This document shows positions 12,255-49,096 of a DNA stretch of 64,000 bases, piece by piece (the first letter of the stretch is position 1; each line of letters begins with the position of its first letter). The notes below the pieces were generated by a model that had not been told where the DNA came from, did not search any database, and worked only from the letters and a program-made list of their open reading frames with translations. A program made the position numbers and the translations under genes. This DNA comes from Chromera velia (lineage: Eukaryota > Sar > Chromeraceae), in contig JAHBMJ010002675.1 in NCBI GenBank assembly GCA_018398765.1, positions 1-64,000 on the forward strand. The letters are read 5' to 3'.

Positions 12255-13047
12255 CGGTGCATGACCTAGCATGGGGTGCCGGGATGGCTGGGGTGAACGT
12301 ATCGATGATACTATCGAACGCTTGATTCCAAACGCCAGTATGAAAAAATTTAAGTGGAGTCCCGGTTCAATTCTAAACTAAAGCCAGCTAAGTCAATCTG
12401 GCTTCATGCAATACGAAAAGCTGGGAAAGGCGAGAGCCAACAGAAACCTGGTTTGAATAATAACAATAATGTAATAATTAAAATGAGCATTGAAAACTGA
12501 TCAATTCAGACACATTGATATTGCAGAGACTAGTGCAGAGAATAAGATTTTAGAAACGTATTGAAAAACACGATTTTTACCATATATTTTTAATTATTTA
12601 AACTAGTATTTAAATTGTCCATGTCTTATATGATGTGTAGACTTAGGCCTATAGTGTGTGATTAGTGGTGCCTTAGAGCACTGTCGCCGTTTTGTCTTAT
12701 AAAGGTCGCCTCCGCAAACGGTAGGGGGGTGTACCTCATCGCTGAGGCTCAGACCACACCCTGTGGTTCGCCTGGTTTCCCAGGCCGCTAACAAACAACA
12801 ATCTATCTGCGCTTTGCATGCTTTGGTCTATAGGCTACTCAAAAGGGACTGCTCCAAAAATCGATCCAATGACACAGGATGAAAGGACACTTTGGCTTTA
12901 TGCACACCCTCTCTCCATTCTTCTCTCAGCGATTTCTCCTTCTCCCTCCCTCAGCTGTTTTCCTGCTTCCATTGCTTCCAGGATGGTCTTGTATTCTTCT
13001 TTTCTTCTTTTCGTTCCTCCCTTTCTTTTTGTGATCACTCCGTGTCT
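12255..13047. other. AT-rich spacer and probable LINE 3' tail
   Basis: 12260-12650 is AT-rich with no coding signal. 12650-13047 returns to normal composition and lies downstream of the minus-strand LINE open frames, so it may be the LINE 3' untranslated region. No gene is seen. Confidence 0.4.
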
Positions 13048-16084: not shown

Positions 16085-19000
16085 TCAGAGTGTCCGTCCT
16101 TCTCCCGACTCTCTCTCATCCTCATTCAAGGTGGACGAAGCATCTGCGAAGGCTGAGGAAGAAGAAGAAGAGGCAGAGGCAGACGAAGAAGCGGACACAT
16201 TCAAGAGACCTGACGCGGTGGTGCGCGTGCCCCCCCCAGCTGTACCTCCGATGTATCTCAAACGTCGAGCGTCATGCAGGGGCGATCGCTCTCTTTCTCT
16301 TTCTCCACCATCCTGTTGTTCGTCTATCCCCTGATTCTTTTGCTTTTGCTCTTCGGGCCTTTCGTTAGACGCGGCACGGGGGGCCAACCCCGTGACAATG
16401 GCACTCTCAGGAAAAATTATGCCTTCTTCTCTTCGTTCTTTATTTCCTTCCTTCTCCTTCTCTCTGGAGTGACCTGATGGCGAAGAGACACCTCTTGCTG
16501 AGGAGGAGGAAGACTCATCGGCAGCGAGGGCTACCCCCCCCTCCCCTTCTTCCTGCCGTCTCTCTCCGGTTACCTCTGTATGTCGCTGTATCCATCCTTC
16601 TTCCATTTCCCTTTGTCTCTCTTCCTCTTCTTCTCTCACAACAACAATCCGCCTTTCTCTCCCACCTCTCCGCCGCCCTCTGAACAAAGTCAACAAACAA
16701 CGGCAACACCCCGGGTCTGCTGCTCTCTGCTCCCGTTCATCCTCCATCAATCCACCCTGGGGCAGAGCCCCCTCGTGCTCTCTTCCACCTTCCCTTGCCT
16801 GTTCTTGTCCCCCCTCTTGCTGCCCTTGTACAGCGCCTCTTTCTCCTTCAACACTCTCTCCGTCACCTCCACCACGACCACCCGTCGCGCCTTCCCCGTC
16901 TCTGTCTCTGTTCTCAATCACATCCACCACATCTGTTCGACACACGGGACATTGACGCGACTGTTGAAGCCAACGTGCAATGCAGGGTGCACAGAAAAAG
17001 TGACCGCCTTCACAGGGCATCACGAGAACAGAAGTATCGTCCTGAAAGGGCTCTATGCAGAAGATGCACTCGGGGGGGTAGTCACTGAAGCTGCGGGATT
17101 GCAGCACTCTGTCAGGCACTTCTCCTCCCCTCGGTGCTGCCCCTTCTCCTTCTCCGTGACCGCCCCCCTCCCCCCCTCCACCAGTCCGGCCGACCCCCTC
17201 ACCCTCATTCTGCCCCTGCGGCTCTGCTCCTCCCTCCTCCCCCCTTCGAGCTCCTGCTCGTGCTGCCAGCACGGCTGCACGCCGGGCCCTGTATCGATCT
17301 CTCAAATCCGCATACCGTATTCTCTCCAATCTCTCCACAATTCTCCTCCCACTTCGTCTCTTCTGGAGGCATCTCATACAAAGCATTCCGCCCAGAAGAA
17401 ACAAAAGCACGAGGGCAGTAACAATCAGGAACCCCACATACAGACGAAGCTGTAAATTCCACAGAAACGCAAACAAATGAAACAATTCCTCGTTACAGCT
17501 CTTGCTGCTCCGCTCAATCTCTGCACCCCACACCCATCCCACCAGCCACCCCCCGAAGCCAACTGCCTCCAACATCGGCACCAACGGACTCAGAGGTGCG
17601 TGGCCACGCGCCCTGAATTCCCACACGTTGAAGCACCGTACACCTGCAGGCAGACAGGCAGAGGTGATTCCGTTCGTGTCTGAAACAAGAAGCTTACTGA
17701 TCGATATCAGACGCGTAGAAACGCATGCACGCGCATGCTCACGCACAATCCTCACTCGAAAATATGTAAGACTGAATGGAGCAGAAAAATCGCAAAGCGA
17801 AGCAGTCAAAATGACTATGAAGCAAAAAGAAAGAGAGGCTATATGACTTATTTTTTTCTTTTTTCTTTGTTTGCAGACAGACAGACTACATGTTTCTTCT
17901 TGTCCCTTCTTTTCTTACAGACTATATGACAGACAGACAGATAGACAGACAGACACGCAAGGGGAAGCTCGAAGCAAAAGCCGAAGATGTCTCCTGGAAA
18001 TGGCGGGACTCACCAGCGCTGAGCAAATGGCGAAACATGAAGAGAACAACCCTGCACGCACGCACACACACGCCATTGAGCACGTACATTAATACATGAA
18101 TGAAGGCCATACATGCGTGAATTAAGACACACTCCGACGGAGAGAGAGCTCGGCTGACAGAAGGACTTGGTAAGGGTTGCGAGCAAAAACCGACTTCACT
18201 TCTCCCCCCCTTTCCCCCTTAATTCTTTCTGTAGGTTTGCCCGACCGAGCCACCAACCAACCAGATGGCAAGGGGCCGTTGGCAGCTCTCCTTGTAGACC
18301 TTCACGAAGTCCAGGGACACCACCACGCCAACAACCAGCACAATCAGGAGCTGCCATCCTGCCGTGGAATGCTGCACAACAGAGCAGAGCAGACAGAGAA
18401 AGGAAAAAGGCACAATGAGACCACAAGCAAAGTGTCTCTTGCTCTGAAGCCCTGACGCCCATCGAACAGAAAGTTTTTTGTCTTGCGCTGTCGTGCGGGA
18501 AAAGGAAGGTATCTAGGTAAAAGAAGCGTCCTACGGAGAAACAAGAGGATCAAACAGAGGGAACAGAAGAGGGGTAGAGAAGCAGGCGGATGGTTTTGCC
18601 GTGAAGAAGCACGAGAGGGAAAGAGATACCTGCGTGAGGCGGGCAGGAAGTGAGATTCTGCGTGCAGATCCCCAAAGCCTGCATGACTGACTGCGATTTC
18701 ACAAACGTACCTGGAAGGCATCCTCCACACACATCAGGCTGCACAATGTCGTTTCACAGATGCAGGAATGACAGAAAGATCAGAACGACAGAGGGAAATA
18801 TGAGACCGAAAGAGAGTCGCGCAGAAACACCAGCAGCATAGGGGCAGCTGGGCAAAAGCTGAAGAAAAGAGAGAGACGGGATCGAGCACTGAATCGACTC
18901 TTTCGGCAGGACATCGCAAGGGAAGCAGATTTGCACATACCAACCATTCGTACAGAGCTCCCCTCTGTTGTACGTCGACATGTTCTCCCTCTGCATTGAC

Positions 19001-23879: not shown

Positions 23880-24695
23880 GAGGTTATGGATGGATGGAGT
23901 GAGTGAGGGATGGATGGATGCATGTATAGAGTGATGGAGTGAAGAGGGATGGATGGGTGGATGGAGTGAGAGAGTGACTGAGGGATGGATGGATGGATGG
24001 ATGGATGGATGGATGGATGGAGTGATGGATGGATGGAGTAAGAGAGTGACTGAGGGATGGATGGATGGATGCCAAATTCGGATGCCATTGGATGGAGTGT
24101 CGGAGTGAGTGAGGGATGGATTGATGGATGGATGGATTGATGGATGGATGGATGGATACATTGATGGATGGAGTGAGTGAGGGATGGATGGATGGAGTGA
24201 TGGATGGAGTGATGGAGTGCATGAGTGAGGGATGGATTAATTGATGGAGTGAGTGAGGGATGGATTGATGGAGTGAGTGAGGGATGGATGGAGTGAGTGA
24301 TGGAGTGAGGAGGGATGGATGGAGTGATGGAGTGATGAGGGATAAATGGGTGGATGGAGTGAGGGAGTGACTGAGGGATGGATGGATGGATGGATGGATG
24401 GATGGATGGATGGATAAATTGATGGATGGAGTGAGTGAGGGATGGATGGATGGAGTGATGGATGGAGTGATGGAGTGCATGAGTGAGGGATGGATTAATT
24501 GATGGACTGAGTGAGGGATGGATTGATGGAATGAGTGAGGGATGGATGGATGGAGTGATGGAGTGAGGAGGGATGGATGGAGTGATGGAGTGATGAGGGA
24601 TGGATGGGTGGATGGAGTGAGGGAGTGACTGAGGGAATCCGATGGATGGATGGATGGATGGATGGATGGATGGATGGATGGATGGATGGATTGAT
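23880..24695. repeat. TGGA/TGGAG satellite with higher-order units
   Basis: About 815 bases of TGGA-based units interspersed with TGGAGTGA variants. A roughly 240-260 base block (about 24160-24400) recurs at about 24420-24640, a higher-order duplication. Minus-strand open frames of 337 and 350 codons encode only His-Pro-Ser-Ile repeats in two frames and are best explained by the absence of stops in the repeat. Confidence 0.85.
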
Positions 24696-25930
24696 GCCAC
24701 ATTGGATGGATCTCGTCTCCTTTTGTCTCTTCTTCTGCTTTCTTCTCTTTTCTTCCCACTAGCTTCTTTTCTTTTCTTTTCCAGGCAGGCGGCAGGCCCC
24801 AGCACAAGTTGCACCGGCAGGAGGGAGTGGTCTTTTCGGACAGCAGGCGGGCAGCAGACGCCAGCGCAAGCTGTACTAGCAGGAAGATGGTTCCGTCATA
24901 ACAATTGAAGTGGTGCATGTGTCGTTCGACAGTCATGATCTTCTCGTCTTGAAGAGAGTTCGATTCAATGCAGGACAGTGTTGTGTCAGGTCACTTTAAA
25001 ATCTTGGTTTCGTCACGTCTCACTTTCGCCCTTCCCCCCCCCCCCCCCCCNCCCCCCCCTCCCCATTTTACCACCCCATAACGAAAATCTTTTACTGCGC
25101 CGCCCCAAATGTGTGATGATATGTGGGCATATTTTAGAAAAGGGCGCACCCAGGGGCCACCCCAGGTTCACTTTTAGACCACCCGGGGGTCTAAGCTACT
25201 TATGCCCCCATCTGAAGTCTAGCCAAGCCCCTGCCTAGTTTTTTTCAACTTTAAACAGCATGATGCTCAACTATAGATAGACAGAGTTGACCACGCAAAC
25301 ACACGGAGAATGAAAGGCATTAATTTTTGTTTGCCATGAAAGGCATAAACTAGGATCGATGGCTTAGTCCAAGGGGGGGGCAAGGCCATCATTGCGCTGG
25401 CAGCAGAATGACCGCGTAACAGACGGACAGGATCTATGCCTAGGCAAGATGCATACTGGCCCGACACAGGACTAGAGAGACACTAAAGAATTATGTGTCA
25501 TCCGACGCGTGTATCGGTAGAACGTTGAGCGTATCATGAATACATGCACATGCACATACAAGTTATGATACGTACAACGTATACGTATACGTATATTTCA
25601 TATATGTTGAGGCCTGTAGACGTGTATACACGCACAGACATCATCAATCTGTGTTCAACAGCGAGAGCATAAACTTGCCTGAGACCCTGAAGTCAGTCAC
25701 CGTGCTGAAATCGCGTGAAGTGAGGCTTGACGAGAAGATACATCTACACAAAAACATAGAAATCTGCAGGCAAAGAAACGCTTTCAGAGACAGACCCAAT
25801 AGATACAGAGCGTCGTGCCGTCTATGCGTACCATGACAGTACGCAGCTGGTAGAGAAAACAACAAGAAGCTCCATCCAGAACCCTACGACAGGGAGCAGT
25901 GCATCCAGTGATCGAACGTCTTTTGTGCAG
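24696..25930. other. Intergenic sequence with poly-C/N gap
   Basis: 24784-24885 holds a diverged tandem duplication rich in GCAGGCGG. 25033-25060 is poly-C with one undetermined base. 25128-25210 is a GC-rich stretch. 25560-25600 has GTATACGTATACGT palindromes. No coding exon is supported; the promoter of the next gene should lie near 25650-25930. Confidence 0.4.
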
Positions 25931-28900
25931 ATGCCTTCCAGAAGCATGCGCTTGGTTTTGGGCCTTGTGCTCTTTTTCGGGGCCCCGGCCTCAGTGACGG
26001 GTTTCCGGTTTCCTCTGCAGGAAAGTCAGTCAATCAGTCGCATTGCACATACACCTTTGTGCCACTGAGCCGCTCTGCAAACAAACACAGTGAGGGTCTG
26101 GGAGGAGTTGCATGGGTGAATCGGTAAAAGGAAAGCCGTGTAGACACTCATTCACTCAGTGTGCCACTCAGGCAGTCAGTCAGTCAGTAAGTCAAGCAGG
26201 CAGCCACTCGGAGAGTGAGTCTATCAATCAGTCATGCCTATGCAATCACGCCAATGACCACAAGACCTCATGCACTTCCTTTCCTTTCCTGTCCCTTGCC
26301 TCCTCTCTTGGAGAGGCCCATCAATGCATATCACTATAGTCTGCGAAATCGACTACGGTTGTTTCCTCATTCAGAACGCATGCATACTATCAGACACCAA
26401 CATGAATATGTATGCATGTCCCAGTACTCATCTCTTCAGCTGTGGATGCTCCCGTGCCCTTCCCTCTGCCTTTTTTCTACTTCACTGCTGACCTGATCCT
26501 GTGCAGACCGTCTGGAAACTCGTCAGGTCAGTTTCTCATGGGAAGGGGGGGAAACGGTACGAGGGATTGCTGTGCGAATTCTTCAAGGGTTTGGCTGTTG
26601 CAGGGGGTTGGTGTGCGTAGGTTCTGTACTGTCATACCAGCAAGCACTAAAGGTCAACACGGATACCGAAGCAAGACGCCCCGTTTCTCTTGAATACACT
26701 CCTACCCGTCTGTCTCTCTCATTCGAAAGAGCTTGAGAGTATCCCTCTCAAACCACAGACACACACATGCATACGCACACACACACACACGCGCGCGCGC
26801 GCACGCACGCACACACGCTTGGATCCATGCAGGTTCTACAGCGCCTCTCAAAATCCGCCGACCCAGCATCTGAGGAGAACAGAAGGCGCATCGGCGACTA
26901 CGTTTCGTTTTTAGAGAAAATGAAAACAACAAGGAAGAGGTCCCTGGGCCCCACAGACACAGCAGATCCTAAAGGGGGCAAAGGGAATCCCCCAACAGAC
27001 GGAAGCGACACACAAGCAGAGGAGGAGGAAGAGGGAGATAACCTCTTCACGACTGATGATCCGATCGTACAGAAAGTCCACGCATGGTCAGTGGCTTTAC
27101 TTCATTTCTTCTCCTTTTTCTTCCTCCTGTTCTTCGTTGTCCTTGTCTCCTTTTTCTTCTTCTGCTTCTTCTTCCTCCTTGTGTTTCCTCTTCTCCTACT
27201 ATCGCTATCACTCCGCCTGCCCTGTGCAAGGCTTGCCGTGCTCTCATCCCCTGCGTGTCGGATGGCCCCATCCATTCATGACTTTTCTTTTCTGTTCGCA
27301 GTCTGAAGAGCGGAAAGACCCCCAAAGACGACGACGTCGCACAGACCCAAATTGACCAGGAGCTTCTCGAGCAGTCCGAATGTTTTGCCAACGAGTTGAG
27401 AGCCCCTCCGGAAGACGGCCAAGAATCTAGAGAACAAATGTGCGAGAGATTCTGGGCGATCCATGACCACTTTTGGATGGCCCGATTCGACGCCAAATTT
27501 CTTCTCGGGATCTCCTATTTCGATCCTGAGGAGTTAGCTCGGATGTGGAGGGAGCATCCGAACCACACGCAACACCAGTTCAAGGCAGGCGTCGATGGGA
27601 TTTTGCGGAATTTGAAGGCCGCAGGAGCAGCCTTGAAAGAAGAGGCGCACATCACAGAAGCGCTCCAAATCGAAATTGCAAAAGATACCGTCAAGGGTTT
27701 TGCATGGGCATTCTGTAGCACTGAAGATCCGGATGCGACGCCTGAACAAACAGAAGCCCTAGAGACTGAACTTGAATTGAAAGACATTTGCCCGAGCATC
27801 AGTGAGGACAATCTGAAGTCCTGGGTAGAAGACAAAGCGAAATTGTTCCAGGAGGGCTTTTATCCCCAGGAAGAGCCACAGGACGCAGACTCGAAGGGGT
27901 GCGGCAAGGGGGTGATCTGCAAGAGCATTCAAAACATGACCAAATGCATTGAACAGAAGCTGGCTGAAAAGGAGCCCTTGGAGGAGTGTCACATCACCCG
28001 CCTCAGTGCCGCCATTGCCGGGGCCCTTGCGGACACACCGAAAGATCTGGAGATCGCAGACCCTCATGGATGCCTTGCCATCGGCAGGGTAGCAAGCGGG
28101 ATCGTGGAAAAATAGTCAGTAGAGTAGAAGAGTGCAGCTTTGAGATCCGATCGACCAAGTGGGTGGTGACCCTTTTGAAACAGAGAGGGAGAACGGGGGG
28201 CGTCTCTCTCTGTCTATCTTTGTTCCCCGCGACTGCTTTGCCAAACTATCGTCTCTCCTTCCCAGATTTAATTTTTCTCCTCTCCTTCTCCCTGCCTCTG
28301 CAGCTTTGAGCGCAACATCGCCCTCGGGTCGGTCTGTCAGTTAGTGAGTGAGTGACTGAGTGAATGAGTGATGGAGTAAGCTGGGAGATTCAATCAGATC
28401 CGGTTTGTTTTTTCTCCGTCCTGTGAACCTAGCGGACCTTTGTGTCTTTCTGTGTCGTCCGCAATCAAGTGCATGAAGGGGGATCCGGGTTTACAAAAGC
28501 GCACGCAGATCGAAGTGTGTGTACGCACACTTTTATGTGTCTGTCTGTTGGTGTATATTTTCGTCGGGAAGGGGGACGTGTCATGGTAAAATGTTTCTAT
28601 TAGTTGTTGCAGGAAAGATGGTGACAGGAAAGAAAAAGGCCAGGGAACCAACCAAGGCGTGCCGCACCTTTATTTCCCTCCACTTTTTGCTCCTAATCTT
28701 CCCTCCTCTCTGTGTGCAGAACGATCAAGGGAGAGAGCAGACTGTAAGTCGGCGTCAGTGTCCAAAATGAAACGCAGAGATGCTGTCTCTCTTTCTCATT
28801 ATCTCTCCTCTCAAAAGTTTTGTTACCAGTCACCCAGACGCCTTCAACTGGGTCCCTCCAGTCCTTGGGAGTGAAGGAGGGAGGAATAAGAAAATGAGTG

Positions 28901-29139
28901 TGCGGTGCGCTTCTTTGTTTCAAGCTTGAATACGCATTTTTGAGCAACAGTTTCCTGGCCTGAATATTTTTGTATGTATATGTTTCTGTGCGTATCGCTG
29001 TGCATGCCTTCTTCTGTGTGGTTCTATTTGTCATGTGTAAATGCGTGTGTGTGCACATGTGTACATACATAAATACATAGAGACATACTTGTGTTTGTAT
29101 GCATGTGTGTGTGCGTGTGTGTGTGTGTGCGCGCGCGCG

Positions 29140-29183
<44 letters not shown>

Positions 29184-31666
29184 CTCGACAACGACATTCT
29201 CCCAACTCTCGCGTGAGTTGCCTTCCTCACCTTTGCTTGCTGTGCTCTCCGACTCTTTGCCGAAATCTGCTTGGTGGCACAATTGAATAAAGAAAGAAAG
29301 AAACAAAATCAGACGAGGCTGAGGAGGATGCATCGTTTTCATCCTCACTTTCTTCCTCGTTTTTGCCTTTTCACCTTCTCTCGCTTTTCTCTCCTTTTTC
29401 TCTTTCATCCACTCATTTGTCCATCCACACCGCCTCTGTCGCTTGCTGTCCTTCCCCCCCCCTTGCTTCCTCTCTTTTTTCTTCCTTTTGCATGGTTCAT
29501 CGTCTGTCGCTTTGCGTATGTTTGACTGATCTTTTGGCGCTCCTGTGTCTCCCTTCCTCGTATGCAGCGAAAAAGCGTCAGTGCTCGGACCCGCGAGGAT
29601 GGAAGGAAGGAAAGGGGGGAGGGAGAGAGATCATCATCTGACCTTTCTTAATTCTTGATTTTATAACGATTACAAAAGCAGGTAGACTGGAGATATGCAC
29701 GTTGACAGCCAGCCAGTAGAAGGAACGAAAAACGGAAAGCAAACTCTGTTCAAGACCGAAAAACGCAAAGGAAGCTCCATTCAAGTCGAAAGAAACACTC
29801 GGCCATGACTTCCCCCTGTCTCGTTTCTCTTTCGAAACGCGTGGAGTTCCCTGCATGGAGTTCTTTTTTTTTGGATTTGTCGTCGGCGGCTAAGCTGCGA
29901 AAAAGAGACTGAAAAAAAAGAAATCGTGGCTCCTTGTGTCGTTCATATGACGTTTTTAAACTTTGTTGCTCTCTCATTGATGCAAGGAACTTATCTCCTC
30001 TCTTTTCCCCCTGTGCATCTCTTCTGGGACCTCCTCTGATTCGATTGTTCAGAAGGAAGAAGTGAGTCGGGAGGTACGATCGAGGATTTGCGTGTGCATT
30101 CAAAGAAATTGAATGGTTAAGTCAGCACTTAATTTTGTGTTTCTCCCTCCTGTAATAACACAGCAACTCTCTCTCTTTCAGGCACCCGCCAAAAAGATTC
30201 TTTTCACTTTTTTTTGTTTGTGTCTCTTTGGGGGCGTTTTGTGCTTTTCAATAGCAGACTGAGGAAGGTCGGATTGAAGTGAGACCCAGCAGTAGCAATC
30301 CATTTTTTTGTAGTTTCGCACAACGTTTTTGCCTTACATTCGATAGAGTTGAGTGCCGTAGGACGCGTCCTCCTGTGACGAATCAATTTTTCTCAATGAC
30401 TCAATTTTTTGTATGGACGGACGCGTATTTGATCTTCCTTTTTTTACTTAATTCAATTAACCCCTGCCTTTTCTTCTTTACCCTCTCCTCCTTATTCTCT
30501 TCGATTTTGCCTTTTGCAGCGTCAACCGGTGAGTCTCCGATTCTGTTTCTTCTGCTTCCTTTCTCCTTTCTTCCCTGGATGACTTTGGGCCTCAAACAGA
30601 CTGCTTGATTGTTGCGTTCTCCTTCTTTCCTTCTGTCTCTCTCTCCCCTCCGGCCTCGTTCACCAAGAAGAAAAAGACGTCCATCAGCCGGCCTTGTGCG
30701 AAGAAAAATTTGCAGTGACGTCCATTTTCAGGGCAGCCACCAGAAAGAGAGTCTGGATATTTTGTGATCGGATCACTTCCTCCTCCCCCCCGCTGCGTTT
30801 TTCTCTTTTTTCTGTCATGCAGGCTGAAGGGAATGGCGTCAGTTGACCGAGTGTTGATCCTTTCTTCTACGTATAAGAAAAGAAGAAAAACATCAATTGA
30901 GTGTCTGTAAAACAGCAGGCGTGTCTGGACTTGTTTTTGGTTCTTTTGTATTGTCTTCAAATCTCGCTTTTGATGGTTCGCCCCCCATTTCTTCGATCTG
31001 AGGAAACGGCTTTTGAGAACAATGTCGATTCTGTGAATTCAGAAAACATGCGTTTCTTGTAGGTTGTGATGGTCAGGAGTCTGTCCTTCCTTGATTGAAT
31101 GTGATCGAAGGATTTTGAGATGAACGGGACGGTCAACTGTAATGAAAAAGAGACCACAAAATAAAGCGAAGAAGGACGGCTTACTCTGTCGTGGCAGCAA
31201 GATCGATCGAGAGATGCTGATCTGAGTTCATCTGTTGGTACGGTTGTTTCCTCCTCTCCTTTCATTCTCTGTCCCTCCCTCCCTCACTCTCTCCGGGATT
31301 GTGTTCGGTCCTGTACTCTCATGCAGGGTCTTTGGGTCAGTCTGGTGTCATGCAGGTGAAAGAAAGAAAGAAAGAAAGGCGCATGTTTGCGTGTAAAGAT
31401 TAGAAGGTGGTGATGGCTAAGGAGACGTATCAAACCGGCAGGCAGACTGAGTGCAAGCAAGTATGAGGAGGCCGCCCTGTTGAAGATAAAACTTTGAGTG
31501 TTTTCTCTTTGCAAATCAAACAGAAAAAAAAAGAAGCTCATCCAGGCCAGCGGATCGTTTGTTGAAGGCACAGGAAGGAAAAAAGGGGGGAGTGAGGGAA
31601 GACAGAAGGAATAGAAGTTGGCCAGTCGCGAGAGAGACGCACACACACATACACAGAGAAAGAGAG

Positions 31667-31705
<39 letters not shown>

Positions 31706-31970
31706 GAGAGAGCACATATTGTGTCTCTCTCACTGTTCATCTTGTGGACTCGCACATGTGTGCATGCAGAAAGCTCCAAGTCTACGCAGGCAGACCTCGG
31801 TCGGTCGGTTGGCTGAGAGGGGGACGACGACGGTTTTCCTTCCTCATTGCATGATGCGATGCAGTAGTCTGAAAAGTCTTGTCAGAGAGTTTGTGATTTT
31901 AATTAAAACAAAGAAGCAGCTCAGTGCTATCGTGTGAGTCCATTGAAGAAAAAGGAAAGAGCATCCACTG

Positions 31971-32035
<65 letters not shown>

Positions 32036-33275
32036 ATGGAACAAAACAAAGGAGGGAGAAACATGGACTCGGGATTGAGCGAGGAAGCAGGCGCATGCAT
32101 ACCATTCTCTGTTTGCAGAACGATGTTAAGCGTCCGTTTTTGTCTTTGAAGACTGTCGATTGCCCTCTGTATCGAAATTCTTCTCATGTTTGTGTGTCCT
32201 TTTTTCCATATACGGTCGTCTGACCGGCCTGCGACTCCATGGAATCTATGCGGAGCATTGCGTTGCAGAGTCACAACAGAAGCAAGTGATCCCTTTAGTT
32301 TTTCTTTGAGTTCTTGACTTTCTTTTTTCCACAGAAATTTCCTTCCTTCGTTTCTTTTGCTGCAGGGGAAACAGTTGGTGCTCAATGCAAGTGATGTCAG
32401 TCAGTCAATCAGTTTGTTTGTTTGTTTGTTTCTTTGCCAGTCGGTGGGAATTAAGAGAATTGGACATGTTTGGGTCAAATGAGTGGGGGCGGTGATGCTC
32501 GACTTTGAAGAAGCGAGCGGATCGTGAGGCAAACTTAGTCAGGTCACGGCAAGGCAACCACTCAATGCAAGAAAGACAAAGACAGCGAAAGAAAAAGTGG
32601 AGCGACAGCATCATAAGGCACCCTTAGAATGTGGAAAAATTTCTCTGCTTATTCCAGGCGTGTCAAATCGTCTGGCTGGGACTTCCTTCTATTTATCCGA
32701 ATACGTGTCAGCACAGCACCCAGGCTGGAAGCTGCTGTCGGCCCACACACAGTTCATGAAATCCAGCAAGGATCCTCAGATAGATGAATGTCTCTACCCA
32801 TTTCTGTCTCTGTCTCTTTCTCTGTCAGCCTGTTCGAGGCTTACGAGCAGTTCACAGTCACCCGAAATGAAGTTTTTTCTTTCGCCTTTTCCTTCCCGTT
32901 TCTTTTTATTTTCCCTCCTGTTGATAAATTTGCATGCAGGCTCGACCACATGTGAGTCGTTGCATGCTATTGTCTCTTCGTCTGTCTGTCGGTCTGTCCG
33001 TTTACACACAGACAACAGCATCTGTCTGTGCATCATCAGAGTAACAGCTCACTTGTCTCCCACGGAGATGCAAGCAAGTCTCTATCTGCACAGCTAGCTC
33101 CTCTTTCTGTATTGATTGCTCTTACCCTTTCACAAGCCTTCCGCCCTCTTACCGGATTGTCTTGCTGGTCAGAGAAGAAGATAAAGTCAGAGAGCTGGGA
33201 GGGATGTTGTATGGTGGGGGTCTGATTGCTCTCCGATGATTTTAGGTATGTCTGGATTCATATCTGGATCTTTGG

Positions 33276-33338
<63 letters not shown>

Positions 33339-36218
33339 CATCCTCCTTTCTCGGACTGTGTGGGTCTCTTCCTTTCCGTGCAGCCACCGGTAGGCAGACT
33401 CTCTCTGTCTGTTTCAGGAAATCAGCACTGCGCTGTTGCGACTTGAATTCGCCTTTGTGGAATTGCGAAGGTTCTAGTTTTGCGATCGAAGCTTTGTCTT
33501 CTTTCATACCTAGCAAGTTGTCCGTCTGATGGGTCTCTGTGTATGCGCTGTGGGTCTCCGTTGGTTCTTTTTCTAAAGTACTGAGATTCAATTTGAAGGC
33601 AGCAACGAGAAAGGGCAGAATGTCGAAAGACCAGAAAATCCAAACCATAAAGAGAAAACCGATGGAAAGATTGTGTACGTTTTCTTTACACGGCTCCTGG
33701 AGTTTTTTTTTAATAACCATGCAGTAAGCTGGAAAAATCGGTCGTCTGTTCCCTTGTTCCTCTCTTCTTTTGTGCTCTTCTGCAGATGTATGGCGTCAGT
33801 CAGTGCGTGCGTGGGTGTCTGTTGAGTGTCTCCCGTTTCTCGACAGCCTTTCGGAGAGACAAAAGCTCCGAAGAAAAACGTGTAGATGCTTCTCTCTTTG
33901 ACTCGTGTCCAAAAATTGAACTTTCCCTCTGAGAAGAAGGCAACACGGTGCTTCTGCTTCTTTCATGACACTTTTGCTGTTCTGTAATCTCGTGACGAAA
34001 AACAGATTCTGGTTCTTCGCACGCCCCCCCTCCTTTCCGGTGCATGCACTCTAGCTTGTGTTTCTTTCTCTCACGCCTTCTTCTTGTCTGCTGGTGTTTC
34101 TGTCTGTTAACACTCTGCCCTGCAGCCTCGGAGGGTCAGTGAAATCGAGGGAATCGAATGGAAAAAAGAGAAGAGAAGAGCAGATTGGATGCATCAACAG
34201 TCGTTCAGGAAGCTTTTGGACGAGTCAGACGACGTATAAATGACAGAGGGGAAGGGAAACGAAATTGAAGGAAGGAGAAAAGAGAGACCAAGAGGGGAAA
34301 AGAAATAGAAAGACATCCGCATTTTTCTTCCTTTTTCATGACCTAATGTGTTTGTGCGTTTGTGTGTCTTCCTGTTCAAATGCAGTCGTGAGGACTTTCA
34401 GTTTGAAGAGTCAGTCCCTCCCTCTTGCCTGCCTATGGAGTGCTGCCCCTAGCTTTCCTCTTCTTTTCACTTCTCATTTATTTTTTTCCTTTTTGGGTCC
34501 TTACTGGATCTTTTCGTTTCTCTCGGGAAGAGCGAAAGCTTGGTAAGAGTAGAGAAGAAAGGATGTATCAGAGAGGGAAAGGGAACCACGTTGGTACTGC
34601 AAACTTGTTTCAGAGGCTGGTCAGAATCCGTATTTAATTCACGCAACCGCGGCGTCTGCACGGACCGGCATGCAGGCCAACGACTGCTGAGCCTTTCAGA
34701 AGTGTCCTCTTTCGCCCAGATTCCCCCCATACACACGTATGCTCTCACGATGTCTACCTGATGAATTTAAATGGTCTTCTTCCTCTTTGTTTTGCTCTCT
34801 TTATGTGTGACCCGTTTGGCATGCAGGAACTGGAAACAGTCAGCCCAGTTTATCTCTTGTGTGATTCCTTCTGGCGTGTATCAGACTTATGATTTATCGA
34901 TCGTTTTTGTGAGCTCCTCCCAGATTGGCTGCAAGACTCATGCGGAAGCAGACAGAGTTTTGTGCTTTGTGTTTACGTGTTCCTTCTGTCTCTGAGCGGT
35001 CTCCTTCAATCTGCTTGCATGGGAGCGCGTTGAGCGTGCGTTACAAGAAGAAAAGAGACGGTTTATTCTGATCGATTTATTGGACGCGCGCCCACAATGC
35101 GACAAACACGAGAAGACAGGCATGCACGCAGGGTTTCTCTATGTCTCTTTATTCTCTGTATCTTCCTCCGTTTTTCCCACTATGCAACGCTCCTCGATCG
35201 ATTCAGCTGCGTCTTTCCAGGGTCAGGTGTTGTCGCTCTCTGTATCGGGTCGCTTTGTGTTGCTTTCCTTCTCTCGGCGATCCATGTTTCTTGTCAACAT
35301 ACGCATTTATTTGTCGATCACTTTCCGTTTCCCTTGTCATGCCCCCTCCTTTAATTTTCTTGTTTGCGGGAGTGTCAGACTTCCTATTGTGCCCCTACTT
35401 CCCTCCCTTTCCACAGACTAATGAGTGCGGCAGGAAAAAGAAATTCGATTTGAAGCCCGTGTATGCTATTTATTCAATGGATTTGGGATGCTCTAACTGA
35501 GCTCCCTCCCTCTTTCGGCTTGAAAATGTGTCTTCCTCCGCTTGCCTACAGGAATCAATGTCTTCCTGCCTCGATGGAAGAAAGGGACTTCCTTACGTCA
35601 GTCAATTTGTGTGTATCGATAGACGGAAGAAGAAGCGCAAATCCCTCGTGAGGACAGTTGAGAAGATGCAGATCAGAGCGAACCGTCGCGACCTTCTTTC
35701 TTTTTTGTTGTTTGAATCAATCGACGCTTCCCAGAAATTTTCACGGCTCGAACTCATTCCCCTTCTTTGCAATAAAAATGCCTCCTTCCTTGCATTTCAC
35801 ATCCTCCTGCATTTGTGTCTGTCCGCCCGTTATTCTTTCTGTTTGCAGAAGAAACGCAAAAAAACAACACGAACTTTTTTTGGCAGCCCAGCAGCAGTCA
35901 GTCGGAGGGAACAGTGTACGGAGGTGAGATCTTTCGTCCTGTCGTTTGTTCCCGGCAAAAGCAAAATGTTTCTGATCAAGTACTTCTTTCATCTTTTTTC
36001 TCCCTTTTTTGGATTCCCGTTTTTGTCCTAAGGGATTTCCTTGACCTGACTGGCATCTCAGTCGACGGAGAAAAAGGCCGTCCCCTTGACCCCAGTTTGT
36101 TGCTGATTCAAAACTTTTTGGCAAAAAAATAAATAAAACAATCCGGTTTCAGTACACGAGAAATCTGTCCTACTCTCCCCTTTCCTGAATCTCATTTGTC
36201 CTTTTACGAATCAACCTA

Positions 36219-36249
<31 letters not shown>

Positions 36250-37954
36250 TTCTGTCTTTCTTTCTGTCTGTCTGTCTGTGTGTCTCTCTGTCTGTCTGTC
36301 TGTCTGTATGTCTGTATGTCTGTCTGCCTGCCTGCCTGCCTGCCTGTCTGTCTGTCTGTCTGTCTGTCTGTCTGATGGATGTGCAGAGGCGACCCTGAGA
36401 AGATGCACGGACCGAAGATGATGCGCAATCAGTGAGTTGATTTCTTGCACGGACATCGTGGGACTTCCTTCTGTCGGAACCTGTTGCCCGGCTCTCGCAT
36501 TGTCCATGCGTCTTTGTGTTCAAGCGTTGGCTGCTAGTGTGGGCACGGTAGAAAACGAACTGAATGTGTGTCTGTTCTGTTTCTCAGATAGGTGACCCTT
36601 CTGTTAAAGTGCATCATTTTATTCTTTTAATTCTCTTCTTCGACCTCTGTGTGTGTGCAGGATGCTGAACGTAGCGTCAGTCAGACTGTACAGTTTTCTC
36701 TCCTGCATCTGTCTTTGTTTGGCGACTCCGACCTCCTTGTCCTCCTTCGCATACCTACCCCAGGTTTTCCTTTCCAGACCCCTCATGCTCTGATATGCTC
36801 TCCGTTTTTTTGGGTTGGTCTGTCTTTCCCCCTTGTTTAATTTCTTGAAGAGGAAATGAGGACAAAAAAAGACACAAGAGAAGGGGAGAAGATAAGAAAG
36901 GAGAGAGAGTGACGGGGAGGGGAGGGGGGTCCTCCAGATTGCCTTTGAGTCGTGTCATGCTATTCCTCCAAATTCTCTTTGAGTCATGCAGTCTTCTTTT
37001 CTTTCTCTCCTTTTCCTTTTTCTACCTTTCTGTGTTTCTGAATCTATTTGTTGTTTTGGAGTCTGTGATCTATCAATGAGATTTTTCAAAAGCGCTTTCC
37101 TGCATTCCTCTTTTTGTTGCCACTATCTTTTGTTCGCCCCTTCCTTTTGCAGACACAAACTGGAAGGCGAAATGTGAGTAGAAAGAAAAGGAAGGGGGGG
37201 GAGTGGGAAAAAAAGAGACGGAGTCAATCTAAGTTTTCACTGGCTAGCTGCTTGTTTTCTTCTCTTCGGGTCCTTTTGGATTTCAAACAGATAGAGAGTC
37301 CTGCAGATCCGTTTTTTTTTCTTTCCTTTGGCTCTTGCAAGGAAGTCACGTTGGTCAATCTGTCGAAAGGTTTCCTTCCCGCTTCAGTTCCCTTCAGTAC
37401 ACTTCATTTCCGTGCGAGATGCGAGAGGCCCTAGTGTTTGCACACTTCGATGCCGAATGACTGTGGGATGTGTGGGATTAAGTTTGTGGGCGCGCTTGCC
37501 GCGGTGCCCGATCATGTTAGCCGTTCCAAGAGGTTTTCTCATATATGTGCTGAACATGTTTTGCGATTTTGACTCTCTTCGATCCCTCTGTGATCTCTGT
37601 CGTGTCTCCCTCCCTGCAGTCTCTACCTGTCAGTCAGTCGGGAGGGAGGGAAGTCGGGAGGCCAGTGTTTTGCTTAGAAGGGGTTTGCAAAGTGTGCTCT
37701 TGGAAACGTACATTAGCATACACGCAAAGAGACAGAGGAATGAGAAAAACATGGAGGAATGAAGAGAGAGGGAGAGAGAGAGACGTCTAGACAGCAAGCA
37801 GAGGAAAAGGAGAGGGGCAAATCAAATCAAAAATGTGGAAGGACAGCAGAAAGAAATACTTTGTTTGAGAAGACCTTTGAGACTCTCCCCTTTCTCCTCT
37901 CAGTTGTTTCGTCCAATTCCTTTTTCTTTCTGATTCCCTTGCATCTTCGTTTCT

Positions 37955-38005
<51 letters not shown>

Positions 38006-40098
38006 CTCTCTCTCAACTTTGCCTTCCACTTCTTTCTGCATGGCGTCTAAGATTTACTTCACTTTGCTATGATTGCCGTCAGTCCCTCTCTTCCCCCCTC
38101 ATTTTTTTTCTTCGATCGATCATGCCTTTTCCCCTTGATTTGTCTGTTTGTTTGTTTGCTTGTTTGTTTTGCAGCTTGAAAGAGTAAGTAAGTGACAGCT
38201 TTGTCTCCTGAAGTCTTTCGTCTTTTCCCTTCCTGGTCACTGCGCGCACGAAGAAAACAGCAGAGAGATCTTCCCTGCAGGGTATTGCAGAACCCTCTTC
38301 CGCTTCTTATTCGTTTAATTCTCTCTTTCCCTTCAGCCAAGAAAGTGATCCCCTCCCACAAGCTGTCATGTATTTCCTCTTCTGTTCGCTGGACTGTCGT
38401 CTTGCTTCTCTCACAACTGGCACCACTCAGGCTGCCATGCAGTCCCTCAGTAAAGAATTAAGTGCACGAATGAGAGGAGGGGATGAATGTGGATTTTCGA
38501 CTAAGCACATGTCAGCCAGCCCATAGAAAGAAAGCCTCTCCATCCATTTCCATGCACACACCCCTCCCAGTTCCCCTCAAATGCAAATTCTTTGTGCCCC
38601 ACCCTTCTTTTTCTTTCTCTTGTTTCATATCGGTCACGCAGATATAGGGCCCTTCCGACCAAGAAAACGTAAGTCTCCTGACTGGAGCAGAGAGAGATGA
38701 GTGGTGTCACTCACATACACTCTCTTGAGTTGCTCATGGATGACCCGATTTTCAGAAAAAGGGGAAATATGAGCAAGAATGTAAGCAGGCAAAGAACCAG
38801 TCGGACGGTTTAAGAAGGGGAAGAAAGGAGTGGCGCGAAAGATGCATACCCACAGCTTTATAGACAAGAAAAGAGGCCGGTAACTGATGTGCCCCTGGCG
38901 GAGTTTTGTGAGATTCGTCTTGAGAAAAGGCTCTGCGAATCATCTGATGCTCTTCCTTCTCTGCCTCCCTCCTTTGCAGGCGGAACAAGTCGGTTTGGAG
39001 GTTGAATGCTGTCTGTGATGACAAGGGAGACTTAGTTTTCTTTCGTGACGGTCTCGTTCTATCGGGCCCTCCTTTCCTTCCTGGTTGACTCTCACCAGCT
39101 AGGTCTTAGCTTTTCTTACCTCCTTCAACCGTTCATTCGTTTTTCTGATTCTTTTTGGGAGCCACAGGACTTCACATCTTTTGTCTTGTTTTAGTGCATC
39201 TGTCCGGTTCTGTGAGTTTTCAGAAACAAAGAGCAGCATTGATGAGTAGAAAATGCTGAATTTTTGAACGGAATTCTCTCAGCGTCGCACTGAAGAGAGT
39301 CCAGTAGCCTTAAAATTTGCTTACAGGGTGTGATGAGAAGAGAGAGAGAGAGAAACGCAGACGAGCTATGCGATAATTTAACTCCTTTCGTTTCTGTTGT
39401 TTGGTGTTTGTGCCCCCGCTCCTGCAGAGGAAAATCTTGAAGACTTGTGATAATAGAGGAAAGAAGGGGGAAGTGACGGTGAGTGACCATGCACAGCTTC
39501 TTTATGAATTTTCCCCCGGGCCTTTGTTTCTTTTTCTCGTCGAGTCCTTCCTCGTCTTTGTCTTCTTTCCAAAGCTCTTTCGGAGTCCTCTCGAATTTTC
39601 CGTGTCATGTTCGAGTCTCTCTCTCCTTGGTTCTCTCCTCGCTGGCGTCTCTTTCATACATTCCCTGAACAAATGGGATGCATGCAGAACTCTCTTTTCG
39701 GGTCTCAGAAAAAGCACCTCAAGGTGAGCATGGGCACCCTTCTAGCGTCCTGCAAAGTAGAGCAGGAGTGCTCCTTGTCAATTGTCATCCTGCTACAAGC
39801 TGAAAGATTGCCTGTCTTCCTTCGCCTTCACACATCAGCAGGGGGAACGAAGAGGGGAAAGAGGGGGGGAAGAAATACACACAGGCATGATCGAAGAGCA
39901 TGTCGCAAAAGAGCAAGACCAGAGAGACGTCCAGCTCTTCCATGCACTTTCTCAAATTAGAAATGTTTTAGTCACACGTTCCAATGAATGCTTTTGTACC
40001 CCCTTATTGCTAAATTGATATCCTGTGTGTATTTGAAAAGAAGCTTTGGTCTGTGCATATTTGTTTGCAGAACTGAAAAGCCGACCTCTTCAGCTTGA
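25931..40098 (+). CDS. Secreted protein encoded by a micro-exon gene
   Basis: Exons: 25931-26024, 26507-26526, 26833-27086, 27302-28114, then 28304-28327, 28720-28743, 29183-29212, 29568-29576, 30258-30278, 30520-30528, 30823-30837, 31327-31335, 31770-31799, 32366-32395, 32658-32669, 32940-32951, 33384-33389, 33786-33794, 34126-34134, 34386-34409, 34827-34838, 35552-35596, 35849-35896, 36387-36431, 36661-36675, 37153-37173, 37620-37628, 38175-38183, 38642-38668, 38980-38988, 39688-39723 and 40071-40098 (TGA); about 585 residues. Exon 1 encodes a signal peptide (MRLVLGLVLFFGAPASVTG). Exon 4 is a cysteine-containing domain with no family I recognise. Exons from 28304 to 39723 are 6-48 nt, all multiples of three and all phase 2. 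Their reading is coherent and helical (PASMEERDFLT, RNAKKQHELFLAAQQQ, GDPEKMHGPKMMRNQ, YRALPTKK). Four exons (28304, 34386, 36387, 38642) are open only in phase 2 and not phase 0. Function is unknown. Individual 6-12 nt exons are the least certain. Confidence 0.65.
26767..26816. repeat. (CA)n(CG)n microsatellite
   Basis: A CA run with GCGC core lies just before exon 26833-27086. It is one of the few such repeats here in antisense orientation relative to its host gene. Confidence 0.85.
29100..29181. repeat. (GT)n microsatellite before micro-exon 29183
   Basis: A GT run with a short GCGC core ends directly at the acceptor TGCAG of micro-exon 29183-29212. Confidence 0.9.
31662..31711. repeat. 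(GA)n microsatellite
   Basis: A GA run in the intron preceding micro-exon 31770-31799. Confidence 0.9.
31975..32034. repeat. (CT)n(GT)n compound microsatellite
   Basis: CT then GT in sense orientation, about 85 bases before an acceptor-like TGCAG at 32118. The sequence after that acceptor is not included as an exon because it does not stay open in phase 2. Confidence 0.9.
33281..33334. repeat. (CT)n(GT)n compound microsatellite
   Basis: CT then GT in sense orientation about 50 bases upstream of the acceptor for the 6-nt exon 33384-33389. Confidence 0.9.
36221..36373. repeat. (CTGT)n microsatellite
   Basis: About 150 bases of CTGT/CTGC units end just before the acceptor of micro-exon 36387-36431, again pyrimidine-rich in the sense direction. 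Open frames in it are artefacts. Confidence 0.9.
37957..38015. repeat. (CT)n/(CTAT)n microsatellite
   Basis: A CT run with a short CTAT core in the intron between micro-exons 37620-37628 and 38175-38183. Confidence 0.9.
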
Positions 40099-40144
40099 AG
40101 CTGTACTAATCAAAAAAGCTTTTCAATTACAAATTGGGGGATAG

Positions 40145-41908: not shown

Positions 41909-43088
41909 TTAGTCGTGCTTGTGGTCGTGGCCGGAGGCGTAGCCCTTGCCGGAAGAGGCAGTGGCGGGGATGGTCTCAGTCATCACGCACTGCTTTCCGG
42001 TGTCGGTGAAGCCCTTAGGGCAGGACTGGGTGGTGGTGTAGGAGGTGGTGGTGCAGCCTCCGTTCTTTCCGGCAGTGGAACCGGGGGGGCAGTTGTAGAC
42101 GGCAGGGACGGAGTGAGTGGCCTCGCAGGTCTTTCCGGTGTCAACAGAGCCGGGGGGGCAGAAGTAAGTGGTGTGGGACTCCTGAATGTAGGTGGTATCA
42201 GCAGGGATCTGCTCGGTGACGGTCACAGGGACGTAGGTGAGGGCAGTCTCCTCGAGGTAGCAGCCTCCCTTCTTGCCAGAGCCAGAGCCGGCGCCGGGGG
42301 GGCATACAGACTCAGTGGTGACCTTCTCGGTTCTGGCAATCTCGGTCTTACTGGCGGTGATAAAGGTGGGGATAGCAGGGACAGAGGTGGTCATGGGGAC
42401 AGTGGAGGTGACAACCTTGGTGGTGGTCATGGGAGTGGGGGCGTAAGAGGTCTGAAAAGAGGTGATGCTGTTGGCAGCAACAATCTCGGTGTTGTAGCTA
42501 GTGGAGACGGAGTGAGAGGTCCCCATCATGGTGGAGGTGGCGTAAGTGAGGGAAGTCTCCTCGGCGGAAGAGAAGGCGGAGGCGCTGTCAGCGGGGACAA
42601 CAGAGTAAGTGGGGACCATGGGGACAGTCTCAGTGAAGGAGTCAGTCACCACACGGTACTTAGTCTTCATAGGGCAGGGCTGTCTACCGGCAGCGGGGGG
42701 AAGAGGGGTTCCTTTGCCCTTGGAGCCGTGGCCATGTCCATGGGAAGAGCCGTGCCCGTAGCCGGTTCCGGTGGCAACAGAGCCGTCAGGGCGGATGCAA
42801 TTGGCGTAGTTGACACGAGAGTTGGTGACAGTGACGGGGGAAGACTCGTGAGCAATGGAGTACTTCACGAGAGCAGGCACTGTCTCAGTGTAAGAGGAAG
42901 AGTCAACACCGGCGAAGGTCTCCTCGAGGACAATGTCGTCGTACACAGTGGACACCTCCTCAGTGGTGGCGGTCTCAGTCATAGTACGGGTCTCGTATCT
43001 GTAGAGCTTGGGGACAACCTCAGTGATGGTGGAGGGCTCGAAGGTGATGCTGGTGGTAGTGAAAGTCTCAGCAGGGACATCCTCCCAA
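41909..43088 (-). CDS. Oocyst-wall-protein-like cysteine-repeat protein (5' exon missing)
   Basis: One long exon ends at TAA (41909-41911); its upper end is set by the acceptor CTTGCTGCAG at 43089. It encodes about 392 residues. The C-terminal third has Cys repeats CPPGSVDTGKTC, CPPGSTAGKNGGC and CPKGFTDTGKQC, separated by Thr/Val/Pro segments such as HSVPAVYN. This spacing resembles the COWP family of apicomplexan oocyst walls. The rest is Thr/Ser-rich with recurring TETVP and TEQIP words, plus a Gly/His segment (HGSSHGHGHGSKGKG) and a His-rich tail. Family members are secreted and disulfide-crosslinked into resistant walls; here a cyst-wall role is inferred. A signal-peptide exon should lie at higher coordinates, but none was identified. 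Strong third-position bias leaves a 396-codon antisense frame open. Confidence 0.65.
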
Positions 43089-43721
43089 CTGCAGCAAGGC
43101 AATGAATGGGTAACACAACGGTGAATCGAGAAGAAACGAGCTGACAAGATTGCGTCACTTGAAAAAAATATTCCAGTCATTGAGAAGAGAAAGCAGCAGG
43201 CAGCAGCACACAAAACAGGAAGAGACCGGAAGAATGCACCGAAGTGACAGAGAAGCAGAGAAGCAGAGAAGCAAAAGAATACAGAGAGGTGAGGGTATTG
43301 AAATAGGCTAGACTCAACCACAGTCTAGACCTCAAAGACGTTAACATGTTAACATCTATTGTCTAGCTATAGGTTAGTATCATATAATTTGATAATGATC
43401 CTTTATTCTTTTTCATTAATTGACTAGCGAGTTAATAGCCTTTCTTATATACATAAATAAATATCAAACTATGTAAGTAATACAACTTTATTTATTTAAA
43501 TTTTTGTTTATTATAACTTTAGTTTTGTTGTATACTAAACTCTATCATATTTTTGATTTGATCTTTTGTAATGTCAAGAATTTTTTACTCACAATTTAGG
43601 TATAAGGCTGCAGATAAGGTCTAATAATTAAGTTTTCTAGTAAGTTTTATACTGTTTATGCAGTTGACTTTAAAAGGTACACTCTAATATAAATACTAGT
43701 CACTGAGTAGTATTCACTAAA

Positions 43722-47539: not shown

Positions 47540-49096
47540 AACAGACGGACAGACAGACGGACAGACAGACAGACTGACAGACAGATCATATGTTTCTTCT
47601 CCCTTCTTTTCTTCACAGACAGGCAGACAAACAGACAGACAGACTGACAGACAAGCAGACTGCCTGACTGACCACACCGACAACCAGACCCCCATCCCCA
47701 ACGAGCTCTGAGAGGAGGCCTGCGTGCGTCAGTAACAAGTTTGCGAGGGAAAAAGACACGGAAATTACTTTACTCGTACTTGCAATTGGAGAGAAGGGGT
47801 GTAACGGGGCTCCTGAGAGAAACTTTGGGCGGCAGAGCGAAAGAAACGAAGAAAAGGAAAGCGAAAAAAATCGATTCAGGTCAAGATTAAGAAAAGAATG
47901 CGTCTCAGACAAAAGTAAAGAAACTGGCAGGCAGGCCATCACACTGAGTCTCTCCCTGAATCCCTCCCTCCCTCCCTCCCTCTCATCCACTCCAGCTCAG
48001 GACAATTAATGAATCAACATTATGGACAGATTCCCCCCCCCCTTTCTACTTTGCACTCCCATTTCCAACACAAGAGAGACCTTCTCGCACAAACACCAAG
48101 CGCTTCCCCTGAAGAGCCAAGGTGTCGGGGGGCGGTGAAGGACTTTGAGGGAAAACGGGGAGAGATTGGAGAACAGAACCCTATCCCTCCCTCCCGACCA
48201 ACCTACCTACCACGGTTGCCACTATGTTTCCCTTGTGCACAAAAAAAGACTAACACAGAAAACTTGACGGGAAAGCAGAGTAGACTCACTCACTCACTCA
48301 CAAAGTTTGGCACCGGGAGCGCAACAAAGGTCGAGAACAGAATGTCCTGCGTGCATGCAGGGCAGGCAGAAGGGCAGGCAGAAGGGCAGGAGAGGGTGTC
48401 GGATAGGGCGCAGGAGAAGAGACAAATAATTATACCTCATGGTGTCCTGGAGTTTCCTTCTTACTTCCCGGCTGAATGAGCGACAGATTGACCGACGACA
48501 TGATAGGGGGTCCACCTTTTCCGTCCTTCCTTCCTTCCTTGCTTCCTTCCTTCGATCGTTCGTCTTTGAGTACGTGTCTGTGTGCGTGTCTCTATCTCTG
48601 CCCCCCCTCCCCCACGAGATCTGCGGAGCTGGAAATCGACACTCAAACACAAGCAGGAGAAATGCGGAGCTGGAAATCGACACTCACACACAAGCAGAAG
48701 AAATGCGGAGCTGGAAATCGACACTCAAACACAAGCAGGAGATATGCGGGGTTGGAAATCGACACTCAAACACAAGCAGGAGACATGCCGAGCTGGAAAT
48801 CGACACTCAAACACAAGCAGGAGAAATGCCGAGCTGGAAATCGACACTCAAACGCAAGCAGGAGATATGCGGAGCTGGAAAGCGAAACTCAAACACAAGC
48901 AGGAGATATGCGGAGCTGGAAATCGACACTCAAACACAAGCAGGAGAAATGCCGAGCTGGAAATCAACACTCACACACAAGCAGAAGATATGCGGAGCTG
49001 GAAACGACACTCACACACAAGCAGGAGATATGCGGAGCTGCAAATCGACACTCACACACAAGCAGGAGATATGCGGAGCTGGAAATCGACACTCAN

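Follow-up and report, generated by a model that had tools for sequence, protein, structure and literature searches.

A long run of short, single-phase micro-exons behind a putative secreted-type domain in the alga Chromera velia

Does a run of exons as short as 9 nucleotides (nt) in the alga Chromera velia belong to one real gene, and, if so, does it serve to generate variant proteins? The locus occupies positions 25931–40098 (+ strand) of the window analysed here, the first 64,000 nt of the 92,920-base contig JAHBMJ010002675.1 (assembly GCA_018398765.1; 177.8 Mb). A sequence-only reading had placed here about 27 exons of 6–48 nt, all multiples of three in length (3n) and all in phase 2, behind three ordinary-phase exons and one of 813 nt, with an end at 40098, and had likened the design to schistosome micro-exon genes (MEGs). 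To our knowledge, the other runs of symmetric micro-exons are those of animal parasites and plant-manipulating insects, where they are usually credited to an arms race. We find that the array is real. The reading we prefer, at a probability of roughly 0.7, is a single + strand gene predicted to encode a protein of some 558 residues: a leader, an acidic linker, a domain that contains Cys and is probably helical, and a tail of about 160 residues built from 24 micro-exons.

The array was first evident in a frame-blind pattern scan for a CT-rich tract with a YAG acceptor and a GTVRGT donor, mutually nearest and 6–60 nt apart. The target interval (28115–40100; 11,986 bases) holds 23 such units on its + strand, 21 of them 3n, and 0 on its − strand. 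The rest of the window (49,850 bases per strand) yields 10 units on the + strand (8 of them 3n) and 20 on the − strand (10 of them 3n). Background was taken from both strands at 20 random contig starts, giving 400 kb of strand with 94 units, of which 29 are 3n. Neither the excess of 3n lengths (binomial P 2.4e-9) nor the density of units (Poisson P 6e-14) is expected by chance.

This is confirmed by an independent splice-site model, trained on 20 short exons from two other loci together with exons 2 and 3 of this gene; the target micro-exons were kept out of training to avoid circularity. The 20 outside exons had been chosen as 3n, but length does not enter the model, which scores sites. At the loosest cut-off (A>=4, D>=5) the target gives 33 units (23 of them 3n), with 2 on its − strand, against 307 (88) in the 400 kb of background. 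The − strand is empty at all stricter settings, and the target and background counts become 21 (all 3n) and 43 (15) at the medium cut-off (A>=6, D>=6), 19 (all 3n) and 23 (6) at A>=8, D>=6, and 17 (16) and 12 (2) at the strictest, A>=8, D>=7. The medium setting recovers 20 of the 24 micro-exons accepted below plus the unit at 39428. The earlier claim of 3n lengths in a single phase is borne out by the accepted exons, all 24 of which are open in phase 2.

Nineteen rows of the pattern scan were kept as micro-exons, and 39428–39478 (3n, with an in-frame TGA) was held apart. Three rows were dropped: 28341–28347 (7 nt), 39195–39211 (17 nt) and 33514–33549 (36 nt; 3n, with a stop in frame). Five micro-exons (at 29183, 31770, 32940, 34827 and 36387), all 3n and open, were added from a second, trained splice scan, outside whose training set they lie. 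Weak-acceptor pairs of 61–74 nt were also discarded, at 31865 (69 nt), 32335 (61, 65 or 69), 33725 (70 or 74) and 38443 (68). The nearest donor was taken in every micro-exon. The accepted set comprises 24 micro-exons of 9–48 nt (mean 20 nt, total 483 nt), separated by introns of 189–834 nt that are alike in size. Donors are GTVAGT in 20 of the 24, with GTCAGC after 34838 and GTCGGT after 28327, 31799 and 38988 as variants; acceptors are TGCAG in 21 of the 24. The feature that marks the micro-exon class, a run of exons below 50 nt, each 3n and in one phase, is found in all 24. The long run proposed earlier therefore exists, but with 24 supported members rather than about 27, the shortest supported one being 9 nt. 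The three mixed-phase exons and the 813-nt exon stand ahead of the array as had been read. The parts of the gene, with the basis for each in brackets, are as follows.

25931–26024, +: exon 1, ATG and putative hydrophobic leader, MPSRSMRLVLGLVLFFGAPASVTG/F... (hydropathy; donor GTCAGT)
26507–26526, +: exon 2, 20 nt, asymmetric, phase 1 to 0 (in-frame join)
26833–27086, +: exon 3, 254 nt, acidic linker (open frame, joined reading)
27302–28114, +: exon 4, 813 nt, phase 2 at both ends, domain with Cys, probably rich in helices (open frame; C507 paralogue)
28113–28120, +: in-frame TAG (28113–28115) overlapping donor GTCAGT (28115–28120) (sequence; joins counted)
28304–28327, +: micro-exon 1, 24 nt; use of a stronger donor 8 nt farther along would make it 32 nt (pattern scan, independent model)
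28720–28743, +: micro-exon 2, 24 nt (pattern scan, independent model)
29183–29212, +: micro-exon 3, 30 nt (trained scan, independent model)
29568–29576, +: micro-exon 4, 9 nt (pattern scan, independent model)
30053–30061, +: micro-exon 5, 9 nt, acceptor TTCAG (pattern scan; missed by independent model)
30520–30528, +: micro-exon 6, 9 nt (pattern scan, independent model)
30823–30837, +: micro-exon 7, 15 nt (pattern scan, independent model)
31327–31335, +: micro-exon 8, 9 nt (pattern scan, independent model)
31770–31799, +: micro-exon 9, 30 nt (trained scan, independent model)
32366–32395, +: micro-exon 10, 30 nt (pattern scan, independent model)
32940–32951, +: micro-exon 11, 12 nt (trained scan, independent model)
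33786–33794, +: micro-exon 12, 9 nt (pattern scan, independent model)
34126–34134, +: micro-exon 13, 9 nt (pattern scan; independent model at loosest cut-off only)
34386–34409, +: micro-exon 14, 24 nt (pattern scan; independent model at medium cut-off only, inner acceptor 34402 being paired at loosest)
34827–34838, +: micro-exon 15, 12 nt, donor GTCAGC (trained scan; independent model at loosest cut-off only)
35552–35596, +: micro-exon 16, 45 nt (pattern scan, independent model)
35849–35896, +: micro-exon 17, 48 nt (pattern scan, independent model)
36387–36431, +: micro-exon 18, 45 nt (trained scan, independent model)
36661–36675, +: micro-exon 19, 15 nt (pattern scan, independent model)
37153–37173, +: micro-exon 20, 21 nt (pattern scan, independent model)
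37620–37628, +: micro-exon 21, 9 nt (pattern scan, independent model)
38175–38183, +: micro-exon 22, 9 nt (pattern scan, independent model)
38642–38668, +: micro-exon 23, 27 nt (pattern scan; independent model at loosest cut-off only)
38980–38988, +: micro-exon 24, 9 nt, donor GTCGGT (pattern scan, independent model)
39428–39478, +: 51-nt exon, strong splice sites, TGA in phase 2 (pattern scan, trained scan, independent model)
39688–39723, +: possible alternative 3' exon of 36 nt with weak splice sites, open in phase 2 (frame reading; in none of the three scans)
40071–40098, +: possible alternative terminal exon, TGA at 40096–40098, the end given by the sequence-only reading (frame reading)

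The joined micro-exons read as coding sequence. Their phase-2 frame contains 0 stops, the other two frames 5 and 6. Guanine-plus-cytosine (GC) content by codon position is 0.56/0.34/0.60 in the tail against 0.59/0.39/0.61 in exon 4, and none of 5000 shuffles matched the dip at the second position. With exons 3 and 4 and the paralogue described below as training set (1653 codons), codon log-odds average 0.184 per codon in the tail and are positive in the phase-2 frame alone among the six; none of 2000 shuffles equalled this score, nor did any of 1000 length-matched sets of open fragments from introns. Mean helix propensity is likewise highest in the phase-2 frame (0 of 2000 shuffles). The micro-exons contribute 483 of 1677 nt, or 29%, of the coding sequence.

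How the tail is joined to the rest of the protein is decided at the end of exon 4, which finishes in the phase of the array. Because micro-exon 1 begins with C, the join reads TA/C and encodes Tyr. Because the exon 4 donor lies within an in-frame TAG, the protein would stop at residue 393 if intron 4 were retained, and likewise after 18 of the 26 possible joins to a later exon, which create TAA or TAG; the tail therefore hangs on one junction. By contrast, none of 300 skipping joins between later exons gives a stop; in 260 of them the junction residue is kept, as only the wobble base is exposed in phase 2. With the 25 normal joins included, these two totals become 325 and 285. The proposal that any subset of micro-exons could be skipped thus stands as far as the frame is concerned, but not for the exon 4 joins.

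A single paralogue was found in the genome, on contig C507, with 25–30% identity over two stretches and a hydrophobic leader by eye. It runs beyond the equivalent of residue 393 with YF, matching the YF of the spliced reading here, and the score of an anchored extension was reached by 19 of 4000 shuffles.

The highest hydropathy of the whole protein, 2.75, falls at residues 8–18, consistent with a secretory leader, although in algae whose plastid is complex a hydrophobic leader could also serve plastid import. The 13 Cys of the protein are irregularly spaced. It matches no Pfam family, its NCBIfam and PDB sequence matches are all weak, and the window has no Rfam match at gathering scores. A single-sequence fold model of exon 4 was useless (predicted local distance difference test score, pLDDT, 42) and hence too poor for a fold search. 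Part of exon 4, compared with 206 candidates of about 100–316 residues, has no homologue at an expectation value (E) of E<=1. That no database protein reaches E<=1 in this search or in that of the whole protein suggests that gene finders can miss micro-exon tails.

Several observations weigh against a single gene of this form. The end of exon 4, TA/GTCAGT, can be read as a plain in-frame TAG stop (28113–28115). At the medium cut-off, the independent model fails to find four of the 24 micro-exons (30053, 34126, 34827 and 38642), and 7 of the 24 have a second GTVRGT 5–11 nt past the donor used, which would give a non-3n length. In micro-exon 1 the farther donor scores higher in the trained scan, and this is the sole non-3n unit at the strictest setting of the independent model; the introns at 32396–32405, 33795–33804 and 37629–37638 start GTCAGTCAGT, that is, with two donors 4 nt apart, the second of which would shift the frame. 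The support from the C507 paralogue lies mostly in the YF, since without it the score is reached by 1288 of 4000 shuffles. In the shuffle test the tail as a whole is not significantly similar to that paralogue: an alignment that looked good by eye was equalled by 296 and 240 shuffles out of 500 each, and the reversed tail scored higher. We therefore claim only the first tail residues as shared. For the whole protein, 7994 candidates of about 316–1006 residues, from a database that holds C. velia records, include no homologue at E<=1. Finally, the 51-nt exon at 39428–39478 breaks the all-open rule: its phase-2 reading, A GGA AAA TCT TGA, stops at 39438–39440.

This last exon bears on where the gene ends. 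Among the 21 units that the independent model finds at the medium cut-off, it alone is closed in phase 2, and its stop gives a protein of 558 residues, whereas skipping it and reaching 40098 through the weak 36-nt exon at 39688 would give 575. We favour 39428–39478 as a stop-bearing terminal exon. The end at 40098 proposed earlier is possible through the weak exon but uncertain, given a strong exon with an in-frame TGA upstream of it. The skew of A over T is negative across 28–40 kb and positive at 40–42 kb, in weak agreement with a + strand unit ending near 40 kb.

In the single gene that we prefer, short introns with strong sites would allow the spliceosome to pair sites across each intron, in which case a 9-nt exon would need no exon definition. 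Since every micro-exon is 3n and the junctions fall after the second codon base, a missed one would cost 3–16 residues while keeping the frame and usually the junction residue. The main mRNA would contain most of the micro-exons joined. Their uniform phase would then reflect growth by symmetric exons, selection for frame-safe mis-splicing, or both, rather than a dedicated variant generator, and the exon 4 junction would act as an on/off switch for the whole tail. Architecture, frame and coding signal are shown by the sequence, whereas splicing in vivo, a functional leader and this switch are what we infer from the layout of the locus.

Is the design peculiar to this gene? On contig C346, twelve phase-2 short exons (12–69 nt; L036 1246 to about 8353; stops per frame 1/0/5) lead in phase into a large exon, forming one unbroken coiled coil. 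On contig C865, thirteen units of 9–57 nt (L037 651 to L040 3291; stops per frame 0/3/2) are open in phase 0, and their first eight lengths alternate 24/12/24/12/21/12/21/12, suggesting a unit of 11–12 residues. These counts leave out weak or non-3n units, such as 156–188, 220–226 and 9498–9503 on C346 and 7983–8007, 12595–12611 and 16930–16989 on C865. Both arrays share splice-site style, 3n lengths and a single phase per array with the gene here, but their proteins are unrelated to it; their Pfam matches are weak. They form a selected sample, as they were found through the recurrence of units of one length. No further array was seen in 220 kb read at 22 places, two of them stretches of C507 and the other 20 random contig starts. 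Runs of short 3n exons, which the sequence-only reading proposed to look for elsewhere, were thus seen on C346 and C865 but not in those 220 kb. Symmetric micro-exon design may be a habit of gene architecture in this alga rather than a schistosome-type system, and because it recurs in unrelated genes and in two phases, its meaning here should not be read from secretion alone.

Matches to TGCAG-N(L)-GTCAGT were also counted genome-wide against a control, giving 338/81 at L=9, 276/172 at 10, 446/263 at 11, 343/111 at 12, 376/131 at 13, 293/108 at 14 and 471/205 at 15. The ratio peaks at 9 and 12, with 15 below 13 and 14. We do not claim a genome-wide 3n bias, both for this last reason and because GTCAGTCAGT donors duplicate a match 4 nt on. 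A strict acceptor pattern gave 73 matches against 61 in the control, with 29 of 69 being 3n once overlapping matches were merged. Same-strand clusters of matches 9 or 12 nt long, seen on C104, C622, C811, C881 and C124 among the first 100 listed places, are leads only; clusters occur at non-3n lengths as well (for example C212 at 11, C789 at 13, C367 and C495 at 14) and at 15 (C176 and C287). Within the window, a 45-nt unit with good splice sites at 48302–48346 (− strand) reads HSVLDLCCAPGAKL, which we take to resemble the S-adenosylmethionine (SAM) motif of an NSUN-type RNA methyltransferase. Short 3n exons may therefore occur in ordinary conserved genes of this genome too.

Among the alternatives, the one that survives best, though we consider it unlikely, is a generator of the schistosome MEG type, in which combinatorial skipping of micro-exons would yield a family of secreted tails. 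It would account for the 3n lengths and single phase of all 24 exons, for skipping joins that never stop and mostly preserve the junction residue, and for the variation among donors. The lack of stop-creating joins is partly expected, however, as only exons ending in TA or TG could produce one, and a generator sits poorly with the 18 stop-creating joins of exon 4 and with the same design in the coiled-coil gene on C346. Schistosome MEGs are described as having a leader and micro-exons of 6–81 nt, mostly of 3n length and set apart by longer introns (PMC10526429, PMC5825161), about 80% of the coding region being short symmetric exons (PMC5825161). The likeness drawn by the sequence-only reading holds for the putative leader and the run of symmetric phase-2 exons, but the gene here is only 29% micro-exonic and its splicing is predicted, whereas splice variants are reported for MEGs, and the design is not tied to one kind of protein. 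Nearest in architecture are the aphid bicycle genes, effectors of Hormaphis cornu described with a secretion signal and many small internal exons, nearly all in phase 2 (PMC9168663), and with helical products (PMC13041983). They share the putative leader and the small phase-2 internal exons, to which exons 2 and 3 here are exceptions. They differ in being large families of salivary effectors of insects, mostly carrying paired CYC motifs and all predicted to have saposin-like folds, whereas one paralogue was found here and the tail is attached to an 813-nt exon. No sequence relation to any MEG family or to bicycle genes emerged, as none of the 7994 and 206 candidates reaches E<=1. A literature search in which most subscription journals and all supplements were not covered returned no paper on micro-exon arrays in chromerids or on micro-exons in dinoflagellates, the alveolate microexon match being a Tetrahymena transcriptome and the one C. 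velia match on intron and exon length concerning a Plasmodium rhoptry protein. Titles and abstract openings on symmetric microexons in protists include no chromerid paper, and the main text of the chromerid genome paper (PMC4501334) has no word beginning 'exon'.

It is also doubtful that the tail was once a single exon, later cut by phase-biased insertion of introner-like introns. The C-terminal region of the C507 paralogue still lies inside a single open frame of 1269 codons (flanks included), no micro-exon array occurs within the 20 kb read there, and the introns here are alike in size, all as such an origin would predict. A search for introner traces turned up only simple-sequence or short pyrimidine-rich direct repeats in the array. 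Moreover, no shared motif is visible at exon ends by eye, the tail as a whole is not significantly similar to the paralogue, and random insertion would not yield the same phase 25 times.

Least favoured among the alternatives that concern real genes, and quite improbable, is a division into two units, a 393-residue secreted-type gene ending at the TAG and a separate micro-exon gene downstream. The TAG is in frame and the GTCAGT motif is common in the genome, but the array opens with an acceptor and the 189 bases between exon 4 and micro-exon 1 contain no ATG, although a start deeper in the array is possible. The phase in which exon 4 ends and the continuation of the paralogue with YF also argue for one gene. 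That the array consists of chance AG...GT decoys in pyrimidine-rich non-coding DNA can be dismissed, because even in a genome rich in GTCA/GTGA and CT repeats, with 94 decoy units in 400 kb of strand, the roughly eight-fold density, the 21 of 23 3n lengths, the empty opposite strand, the 21 of 21 3n units of the independent model at its medium setting and the codon signal make it vanishingly improbable.

A long GGAT-type tandem repeat (24001–24700) lies directly upstream of the gene, and further upstream a 609-codon open frame at 16085–17914 (− strand) carries by eye a RING-finger-like motif (CIFCIEPF...CPVC). Downstream, 41909–43324 (− strand) encodes a repeat-rich CPPG/Cys protein. Its ten best relatives are C. 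velia proteins with 39–47% identity, two of which are named for the PBCV-1 P7 disulphide-bonded domain; its own copy is not among 14 matches, and a Besnoitia oocyst wall protein matches at E 2.9e-8.

It is a tentative and rather unlikely proposition that a free-living, photosynthetic relative of the apicomplexans independently evolved symmetric micro-exon genes, here for a secretory-pathway protein whose helical tail would be switched at the stop/donor overlap and varied in blocks of residues by skipping of phase-2 micro-exons. If true, this would be a further independent origin of the MEG and bicycle design, outside both animals and parasitism. The same design in unrelated chromerid genes would suggest a cause at the level of the genome that acts without a host, candidates being short introns with strong sites, tolerance of mis-splicing and growth by symmetric exons. 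As a culturable alga, C. velia would offer a system in which a host-free origin of the design could be tested.

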